DNA from: Oasisia sp. SBJ-2009
Taxonomy: Eukaryota > Annelida > Polychaeta > Sabellida > Siboglinidae
NCBI GenBank assembly: GCA_964017155.1
Contig: OZ024861.1
Location: forward strand, 53,024,309-53,088,308
DNA length: 64,000 nt
Direction of reading: 5' to 3'
A program made the translations under genes and the position numbers. The stretch's first letter is position 1. Each line of letters starts with the position of its first letter. Under the pieces are notes generated by a model. It saw only the letters and a list, made by a program, of their open reading frames with translations. It did no database searches and was not told the DNA's origin. Shown here piece after piece: positions 130 through 1,858 of this stretch.

Positions 130-207
130 ACCGGTCGGCACGGCACGGCACGGAACTTTGTTGAAACAGGTTTAAACAGAAATTCTCGTTTCCCCAACTG
201 ATCCCCC

Positions 208-386
208 GTAGACGGATCGGACTTTGTCGTTTTCCTCGATTTTCCGAAAGTTGGCAAAATGACGCGCACGGCCATTGGGCTTCCTTGGGAGAGTCGTAGT
301 TACTCCCCGTGCGCGACACACGCCCGAGAAGACCGACCGGCGCGTCGAACTTTGCCGTTTTTCTCGATTCGCAGAACTGATCCCCC
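208..386 (+). repeat. Module B, reference copy
   Basis: B is 179 bp in nearly all copies. It has the common head, then GAAAGTTGGC, an antisense 28S-like patch (259-307), a GC-rich unit-specific stretch with GACACACGCCCGAGAAGACC, and a tail ending CTCGATTCGCAGAACTGATC. Two sequence classes exist: B1 with GGGCTTCCTTGGGAGAGTCG, closer to 28S, and B2 with GCGTTTCCTCGAGAGGGTCG, more diverged. B2 usually follows B1 when B is doubled. A 177-bp B2 variant lacks two bases after GGATATGAC and marks one lineage in the right half of the window. Confidence 0.95.
259..307 (-). pseudogene. 28S rRNA-derived patch, antisense, in module B
   Basis: GAGAGTCGTAGTTACTCCC (289-307) differs at one of 19 positions from the reverse complement of 28S across GGGAGTAACTATGACTCTC. 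The match continues leftward without gaps to 275 (28 of 33 positions by my alignment) and with small gaps to ATGACG at 259. This is the same part of 28S as in A and D, but on the other strand. It keeps 28S bases that A and D have lost (CTCTC and AGCC), so it was not made by simple inversion of the present A or D patch. Confidence 0.8.
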
Positions 387-525
387 GTAGACGGATAGGA
401 CTTAGTCGTTTTTCTCGATTTGTTTCCAAAAGTTGGCAAAACGACGCGCCCGGTCGGTCATTCGTCTACATGCACAAGTGATCTCTACCGTCGTCGAGTC
501 CGTCTTTCCCGTCTCTCTCCCTCCG

Positions 526-568
526 CCGGCCCGGGCCGGGCCGCGCCGGGCCGGGCCGGGCCGCGCCG
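526..568 (+). repeat. GGGCC-rich tract in module C
   Basis: A 43-bp tract containing only G and C, with repeated GGGCC and GCGCC and five runs of GGG. The strands are strongly self-complementary (GGCCCGGGCC), so hairpins and possibly G-quadruplexes are expected. Number of GGGCC units is the main length polymorphism of module C. Confidence 0.85.
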
Positions 569-584
569 ATCAGTTACCGGCGGT

Positions 585-723
585 CGGCCGGGCTTCGGAA
601 CGCGACCGGCGGCAAGGCTTCGGCGCACACGCCCGGGCCGGGCTTCGGCATGCGACCGGCGGCCGGGCTTCGGAACGCGACCAGGCTTCGGCGCACACGA
701 CCGGGCCAGGTTTCGGCACGCCG
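585..723 (+). repeat. 25-bp subrepeats with TTCGG core in module C
   Basis: Six degenerate copies with TTCGG at 594, 619, 644, 669, 687 and 712, so spacing is 25, 25, 25, 18 and 25 bp. Alternating forms read CGGGCTTCGGAACGCGACC and AAGGCTTCGGCGCACACG. The 16-bp copy GGCTTCGGCGCACACG occurs twice, 68 bp apart, and is the site of a 68-bp deletion in the C copy at 33764. Confidence 0.88.
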
Positions 724-730
724 CTTGCTC

Positions 731-752
731 AACTGATCCCCCGTAGACGGAT
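731..752 (+). repeat. Conserved module joint, reference copy
   Basis: AACTGATCCCCC followed by GTAGACGGAT is the C-D joint here and recurs at almost every module boundary. Variants are one C fewer (A or hybrid modules following some D), CCTCC, CCAG, CCACCGCAG, and GCAGACGG, GTAAACGG, GTAGAAGG or GTAGACTG in the right half. It is more uniform than the module bodies, which could reflect a binding site, the ancestral monomer ends, or simply frequent exchange here. Confidence 0.85.
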
Positions 753-784
753 CGGACTTTGTTGTCGTTTTCCTCGATTTCTCC

Positions 785-838
785 AACTATCACCCTGTTA
801 AGGTCGCCAAATGCCTCGTCACCTCACCTAGCTAGTGG
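785..838 (+). pseudogene. 28S rRNA-derived patch, sense, in module D
   Basis: AACTATCACCCTGTTAAGG at the left edge matches 28S AACTATGACTCTCTTAAGG at 16 of 19 positions, and GCCAAATGCCTCGTCA (806-821) is identical to 28S. After a five-base insertion the match resumes with TCTAGTTAGTGG (28S TCTAATTAGTGA) in most D copies; this copy reads CCTAGCTAGTGG. Three substitutions (TATCAC, CCTG, GTCGCC) are shared with A, so A and D descend from one already diverged copy. Confidence 0.87.
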
Positions 839-932: not shown

Positions 933-1858
933 GTAGACGGATGGGACTTTGTCGTTTTTCTCAGTTTTTCCGACGTATCACCCTGTTAAGGTCGCCAAAT
1001 GCCTCGCTCGTCGTCTAATGATTTTATATTAGTGGTTCCTTATTACTCCCGCCGTTTACCCACCGGTCGGCACGGCACGGCACGGAACTTTGTTGAAACA
1101 GGTTTAAACAGAAATTCTCGTTTCCCCAACTGATCCCCAGTAGACGGATCGGACTTTGTCGTTTTCCTCGATTTTCCGAAAGTTGGCAAAATGACGCGCA
1201 CGGCCATTGGGCTTCCTTGGGAGAGTCGTAGTTACTCCCCGTGCGCGACACACGCCCGAGAAGACCGACCGGCGCGTCGAACTTTGCCGTTTTTCTCGAT
1301 TCGCAGAACTGATCCCCCGTAAACGGATAGGACTTAGACGTTTTTCTCGATTTGTTTCGAAAAGTTGGCAAAACGACGCGCCCGGTCGGTCATTCGTCTA
1401 CATGCACAAATGATCTCTACCGTCGTCGAGTCCGTCTTTCCTGTCTCTCTCCCTCCGCCGGCCCGGGCCGGGCCGCGCCGGGCCGGGCCGCGCCGATCAG
1501 TTACCGGCGCTCGGCCGGGCTTCGGAACGCGACCGGCGGCAAGGCTTCGGCGCACACGCCCGGGCCGGGCTTCGGCATGCGACCGGCGGCCGGGCTTCGG
1601 AACGCGATCAGGCTTCGGCGCACACGACCGCGCCAGGTTTCGGCACGCCGCTTGCTCAACTGATCCCCCGTAGACGGATCGGACTTTGTCGTCGTTTTCA
1701 TCGATTTCTCCAACTATCACCCTGTTAAGGTCGCCAAATGCCTCGTCACCTCATCTAGCTAGTGGTTCCTTATTACTCCCGCCGTTTACCCACCGGTCGG
1801 CACGGAATTCTGTTGAAAAGAATGTAGACAGATATTTACGCTTCCCCAACTGATCCCC
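933..1858 (+). repeat. Unit 2: A-B-C-D
   Basis: Modules A 933-1139, B 1140-1318, C 1319-1669 (351 type), D 1670-1858. Marked by the CCAG joint at the A-B boundary, GTAAACGG at the start of C, and CAGATATTTACGC in D. Confidence 0.95.

Follow-up and report, generated by a model that had tools for sequence, protein, structure and literature searches.

A rearranged fragment of 28S rRNA from around the R2 site forms part of a satellite in Oasisia sp.

The window analyzed here, a 64,000-bp stretch of the Oasisia sp. SBJ-2009 genome, consists from position 1 to 64000 (forward strand) of a single tandem array with no large inserted element. We cut all four module types at a shared header (289 header hits with at most four edits), so that every module starts with the header by construction. 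This yielded 288 full modules (98 B, 90 D, 56 G, and 44 A) in 64 kb, the long tandem array of near-identical units expected of a 28S-derived satellite. The modules mostly follow the order G-D(D)-A-B(B), with one G, one or two D, an optional A, and one to three B, and exceptions are few. The longest exact internal duplication in the window is 4,525 bp, and the 90 D modules comprise 30 distinct sequences. The first representatives of the features discussed below are listed here, with negative and positive numbers giving positions in 28S before and after the R2 cut.

197-375, forward strand: B module, the first of 98 (module splitting)
273-307, reverse strand: antisense 28S block of the B type, -25 to +10 (alignment, z 12.3)
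376-731, forward strand: G module, consisting of the header and GC-rich subrepeats, in which no 28S block was detected
732-784, forward strand: shared header of a D module (header hits, module starts)
785-837, forward strand: sense 28S block of a D module, spanning the R2 cut from -19 to +29 and interrupted after +15 by a 5-bp insertion (BLAST, alignment, shuffles)
798-804, forward strand: TTAAGGT, which fits the R2Bm cleavage motif given in PMC10499050
846-864, reverse strand: antisense 28S block of a D module, -18 to -36, which holds the R2Bm upstream motif, RUM (BLAST, alignment)
976-1006, forward strand: sense 28S block of an A module, -16 to +15 (alignment, z 10.0 against 100 shuffles)
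1043-1061, reverse strand: antisense 28S block of an A module, 19 of 19 bases identical (BLAST, alignment)

As for the 28S references, they are seven contaminant rDNA contigs retrieved by a pattern scan of bacterial and archaeal assemblies rather than 28S of Oasisia itself, and the Rfam family LSU_rRNA_eukarya was found in all seven. Numbering follows the main reference (L002), in which -1 and +1 are bases 2642 and 2643. The 20-mer TTAAGGTCGCCAAATGCCTC, which marks the R2 site, occurs in 125 exact copies in the window, all on the forward strand, and is absent from 100 shuffles. When up to one substitution is allowed, there are 135 copies on the forward strand and none on the reverse strand, in agreement with the estimate of about 135 sense copies made from the sequence alone. 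Likewise, the site is present, as had been proposed, in every A and D module: it is carried by 134 of the 288 full modules (90 D and 44 A) and by a partial A-type module at the start of the window.

The similarity to 28S extends well beyond the site itself. Aligned to L002, the commonest D form is identical at 43 of 48 aligned bases, apart from a five-base insertion, and scores 58 against a maximum of 32 among 100 shuffles (z 16.5). The homology is therefore far from being confined to fewer than 15 bases or matched by shuffled sequence. In BLAST searches, the E values are 2e-5 for the D block and 0.005 for the A block. Past +15, the extension of the D block is supported, with only 2 of 500 shuffles aligning as well, whereas that of the A block is unsupported (87 of 500). 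Upstream of the sense blocks in both module types, resemblance to 28S is absent (500 of 500 shuffles as good). The match had been placed from AACTAT to TTAGTGG, which is borne out for 785-837; base 838, the last G of TTAGTGG, lies outside it because 28S reads on as ACGCGC. At the four fixed differences from 28S, six or more of the seven rDNA contigs share the same base, the deviating contig being L006.

The sense block is real, yet it is only one of three 28S blocks, the antisense segments at 846-864 and, in B modules, at 273-307 having been overlooked in the sequence-only reading. In all 135 A/D units, the upstream flank from -18 to -36 is present in inverted orientation and downstream of the site. 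This antisense block is identical to 28S in 103 of the 135 copies, with one or two changes in the other 32, and its start lies 48 bp (90 D copies) or 57 bp (45 A copies) downstream of the first base of TTAAGG. In B modules (n = 98), the region from -25 to +10 is carried in antisense. It crosses the R2 site unbroken, and 29 of its 35 bases are identical to 28S in the commonest full-length form. BLAST recovers a 19-base core of this block with an E value of only 0.07, and its extension beyond +10 is matched by 153 of 500 shuffles. The B block is also variable, 9 of its 35 columns showing a minor form in at least two copies. Compared with 100 shuffles each, all blocks align to 28S above chance, with z values of 16.5 (D sense), 12.3 (B), 10.0 (A sense), 6.6 (A antisense), and 5.1 (commonest D antisense form, which has one change). 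Homology restricted to the sense strand is therefore rejected, and common descent from 28S, the one conclusion that the sequence-only reading considered secure, is well supported.

The B block lies inside a predicted hairpin (window 240-330) closed by CGCGCACGG and CCGTGCGCG, which has a folding z of -1.0, 28 of 200 shuffles folding equally well. A stable DNA hairpin of the D region was considered and rejected (z +0.7).

Outside the three blocks, no part of the modules is clearly more similar to the seven rDNA contigs than shuffled sequence, the lowest shuffle counts (2 of 60 and 3 of 60) being those of the piece just before the B block. Significant similarity to 28S is thus confined to -36 to +29. 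The header of the D module is no closer to rDNA than its shuffles, and the same is true of the G modules, including that at 376-731, with their GC-rich subrepeats of about 25 bp. The eight bases between the two D blocks, GTTCCTTA, are aligned equally well to antisense 28S by 139 of 1,000 shuffles. A weak sense remnant, AAGTTGGCAAAA..TGACGCGCA, was seen in B modules (11 of 1,000 shuffles as good), on which we do not rely; in G modules, the same remnant is matched by 224 of 1,000 shuffles. The 28S-derived runs are slightly more conserved between A and D than the rest of the modules (584 of 20,000 shuffles), a weak difference on which we do not rely either and which could be a hint of selection.

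The array is not a working rRNA gene: it holds only about 65 bp of 28S, in rearranged form, and the 64-kb window gives no Rfam hit at gathering score. At a low threshold, a 2.2-kb portion gave Rfam hits to an miRNA and other families at chance level only. The longest open reading frames in the array are at most 189 aa, and none of the viral contigs and plasmids compared with the satellite matched it.

We then place the window in the genome, which comprises 764 Mb in 33 contigs, 14 of them large (42 to 71 Mb). The window occupies 53.02-53.09 Mb on C8, a contig of 54.0 Mb. Genome-wide, the exact site, with A or C at +2, occurs 13,434 times (6,486 + 6,948), while a reversed-pattern control gave 0. 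Around the window, 10-kb samples contain the satellite over a span of 274 kb; those taken on this contig at 52.02, 52.52, and 53.59 Mb do not contain it. The site or the satellite was found on seven large contigs (C1, C2, C3, C8, C10, C12, and C13). At eight loci elsewhere in the genome, with 149 D and 150 B modules, the satellite mostly takes the form of B-D dimers about 361 bp long, with a mixed arrangement at one of the loci (L043). Of 28 contig ends, 17 were queried and 3 of these consist of N; among the 14 readable ends, 5 have the satellite within 2.5 kb, while the other 9 have none within that distance. Some arrays lie about 0.4 to 1 Mb inward of contig ends. The array is a non-coding satellite that is often near chromosome ends.

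The 28S state at +2, A, is carried by 383 of the 13,434 sites. Two such copies in the only stretch sampled on C3 (L059) are in A-type modules, and one on C1 is in a D module; A at +2 may be either the ancestral state or a reversion. At the start of C8, the satellite directly follows 502 bp of mostly CCCTAA telomere. The junction, CCCTAAC immediately followed by TCTCTCGACG, lies inside a B-type 28S block (L031:490-520), and this single junction is perhaps a coincidence, perhaps a trace of telomere healing at a break. On C1, a satellite of about 504 bp adjoins the array, with the boundary near 366.5 kb (L024, L029, and L030).

Since the segment kept in the satellite surrounds the R2 site, its motifs can be compared with what R2 proteins recognize. 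According to PMC10499050, the R2Bm protein needs an upstream motif at -34 to -22, whose wild-type form is AACGGCGGGA at -31 to -22, and a cut motif, RASIN, which is T-6TNANNT+1. The spacing between them tolerates one additional base, and a larger increase or any decrease inhibits cutting. The resolved part of the target in the R2Bm complex runs from -38 to +21 (PMC10499050). In another study, one of the two R2Bm subunits leaves a footprint at -40 to -20 and the other over a stretch that begins immediately before the site and ends at +20 (PMC6895275). R2Tg reads bases between -25 and -20 (PMC12222951). The idea that the sense segment covers the R2 contacts on both sides of the cut is thus wrong, because the block starts at -19 and the needed motif lies at -34 to -22. 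The missing upstream part is present in A/D modules, but it is inverted and downstream.

The two motifs themselves are well preserved. The cleavage motif is kept at all 135 sense sites of the window, and the RUM core is kept on the minus strand in 127 of the 135 antisense blocks. In D modules elsewhere in the genome, the cut motif is found in 141 of 149 and the antisense block is recognizable in 147 of 149. By contrast, B modules have lost both R2Bm motifs. Taken alone, the upstream consensus occurs four times on the forward strand of the window, and its wild-type form 103 times on the reverse strand. As pairs, however, the upstream and cut motifs were found on neither strand of the window at any spacer from 0 to 39, whether in wild-type, consensus, or relaxed form. 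The arrangement of a functional R2 target, with the upstream motif in the same orientation 15-16 bases before the cut motif, is consequently absent from the window. The wild-type pair at spacing 15 or 16 is also absent from the other loci of this genome that were compared at this point, while a looser consensus pair occurs at 14 of these loci, outside or at the edge of arrays. Where inspected (L030), the looser pair lies in the different, 504-bp satellite, most units of which match the R2Bm upstream consensus and cut motif at a working spacing (18 matches); these matches are most likely due to chance in a repeated unit. The four fixed differences from 28S avoid both R2 motifs, for which the chance expectation is P 0.13, and we do not rely on this.

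R2 insertions within the repeats were looked for in the window. None of the 135 sites contains a large insertion, and none of the 288 modules has gained more than about 40 bp; a 37-bp duplication is present in the longest form of A. With no motif pair and no large insertion, a landing role for an R2Bm-like protein is unlikely. The proposal that the array is a pool of R2 landing sites thus finds no support for an R2Bm-type protein, and we reject a working landing site of the R2Bm type on the lack of any motif pair in the window.

Together, these findings show a real 28S-derived satellite, richer than first described and with a clear rearrangement, in which the arrangement of the motifs lends no support to R2-specific readings. 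We think that a dead, rearranged fragment of 28S, from -36 to +29, was probably amplified as a satellite, the tested copies of which hold no working target of the R2Bm type and most likely have no R2-related function. Since the 28S piece is broken and partly inverted, it is most likely a relic and not a working R2 target. Growth of the satellite from a 28S fragment, one of the origins suggested from the sequence alone, is the one we favor, the three significant blocks all falling within that interval. The founder unit would have captured a single short 28S stretch, -36 to +29 around the R2 cut; the three blocks tile this interval, so one stretch accounts for all of them. In B modules, the stretch, as far as it is kept, is contiguous in antisense. 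In A/D modules, it is split at -19/-18, where B is unbroken, and the two parts have opposite orientations. The split falls in the loop of helix 69. One antisense stretch may thus have been captured and then have undergone an in-place inversion of about 50 bp in the A/D lineage, such as template switching during replication could produce at the helix-69 quasi-palindrome. Template switching reportedly inverts spacers between inverted repeats (PMC8604942). The short inversions at inverted repeats reported there resemble the one proposed for A/D, but they were observed in yeast genes, whereas the A/D event is deduced from its junction alone. Subsequently, the units would have diverged, been combined into B-D dimers and G-D-A-B higher-order units, and gone on to spread through unequal exchange and gene conversion, to which the long exact duplications and identical modules point.

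Some observations complicate this origin from one rearranged 28S stretch. The eight bases between the D blocks, GTTCCTTA, are left unexplained by a single inversion. Moreover, when compared by eye over their overlap, the B and D blocks have no derived change in common, so two separate captures are possible. The slightly higher conservation of the 28S-derived runs between A and D, a possible hint of selection, also speaks against this origin. Random capture leaves the coincidence with the R2 site unexplained as well.

Repair by a polymerase-theta-like mechanism fills breaks with short templated pieces. An R2 cut in 28S could have been repaired in this way, with short flank pieces templated from both strands, and the product then amplified. 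All the pieces do lie within 36 bp of the cut and in both orientations, and their span, -36 to +29, is near the -38 to +21 resolved with R2Bm in PMC10499050. However, if the array were the scar of a break made by R2, a breakpoint would be expected at the cut, and there is none: two of the three blocks pass through this position intact, which means that the repair templates would have had to be uncut copies. The breakpoints therefore give no support to the scar that had been suggested, and we regard an R2-triggered origin as unlikely. We are a little more doubtful that the array is part of an rDNA spacer or of a nucleolus-organizer border and spreads with rDNA. Satellites are known inside intergenic spacers, as PMC10257491 reports for Lepidoptera, but no rRNA gene was found in the 64-kb window or in 16 further sampled loci, one mitochondrial gene excepted, and the site or satellite is spread over seven large contigs; on C8, the samples that contain it extend over 274 kb. 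When the assembly was searched for a 28S pattern that bridges the R2 site, GACTCTCTTAAGGTAGCCAAATGCC, there was no match. We do not read this as loss of rDNA, which is probably missing from the assembly or may differ from the pattern. The mitochondrial exception, a small contig (C33, 15,483 bp) with an SSU rRNA match, carries in its first 9,000 bases, as read by eye, ND4L and ND4, then ND1, ND3, ND2, COI, and COII (L057 and L058). We take this order to be of the annelid type, with which the TTAGGG telomeres are in keeping.

SINEs derived from 28S (SINE28) have been reported. Their existence lends some credit to the view that the array began as a SINE-like element, retroposed from an rRNA fragment and partly derived from 28S, and became tandem afterward. 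We nevertheless find this very unlikely, because a single transcript gives one orientation, not two, and the fragment is internal to 28S. The two remaining possibilities would give the array a role toward R2. In one, judged from the layout of the motifs, R2 would bind without cutting: the binding and cut motifs are kept but placed so that bound R2 could not nick, and thousands of copies would then act as an uncuttable sponge at chromosome ends that titrates R2 from the rRNA genes. If true, this would reveal a novel means by which a host can keep a selfish element in check, but we consider it highly improbable. Least credible of all is a pool of landing sites or cleavable decoys. The cleavage motif is intact throughout the window and in most D modules elsewhere, as such a pool would demand. 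Against it, no upstream motif precedes the cut motif on either strand at spacers of 0-39, B modules lack both motifs, and none of the 135 sites has received a large insertion; a decreased spacing, or one increased by more than one base, inhibits cutting by R2Bm (PMC10499050).

Satellites derived from rDNA have mostly been traced to the intergenic spacer or to 5S, and a spacer-related satellite reportedly exists in Vicia. The array resembles these satellites in being tandem repeats that arose from part of the rDNA unit and are located outside it. It differs from them in that its source is a 65-bp stretch of 28S coding sequence, which is split and inverted, and in that the rest of its unit has no clear similarity to rDNA. 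Compared with the R2 target in 28S itself, the array has the same stretch and keeps TTAAGGT, but its upstream motif is inverted and downstream of the cut, and the window is free of inserted elements. The Lepidoptera spacer satellites (PMC10257491) share with it a link to rDNA, there by position and here by descent; they adjoin rRNA genes in spacers, whereas the array has no rRNA gene nearby where scanned. We found no precedent for a satellite or SINE derived from 28S or from the R2 site in the literature searched, which left most subscription papers outside.

The array derives from a short piece of coding sequence that a site-specific retrotransposon also targets, and the -19/-18 junction is a sharp record of how this piece was rearranged. 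In practical terms, any primer, probe, or motif search designed on the R2 site risks cross-matching over 13,000 copies of the satellite in a genome of this kind. In one of the contaminant 28S genes (L005:5392-5807), a group I intron match in Rfam begins close to the R2 site, which suggests that another mobile element uses the same stretch.
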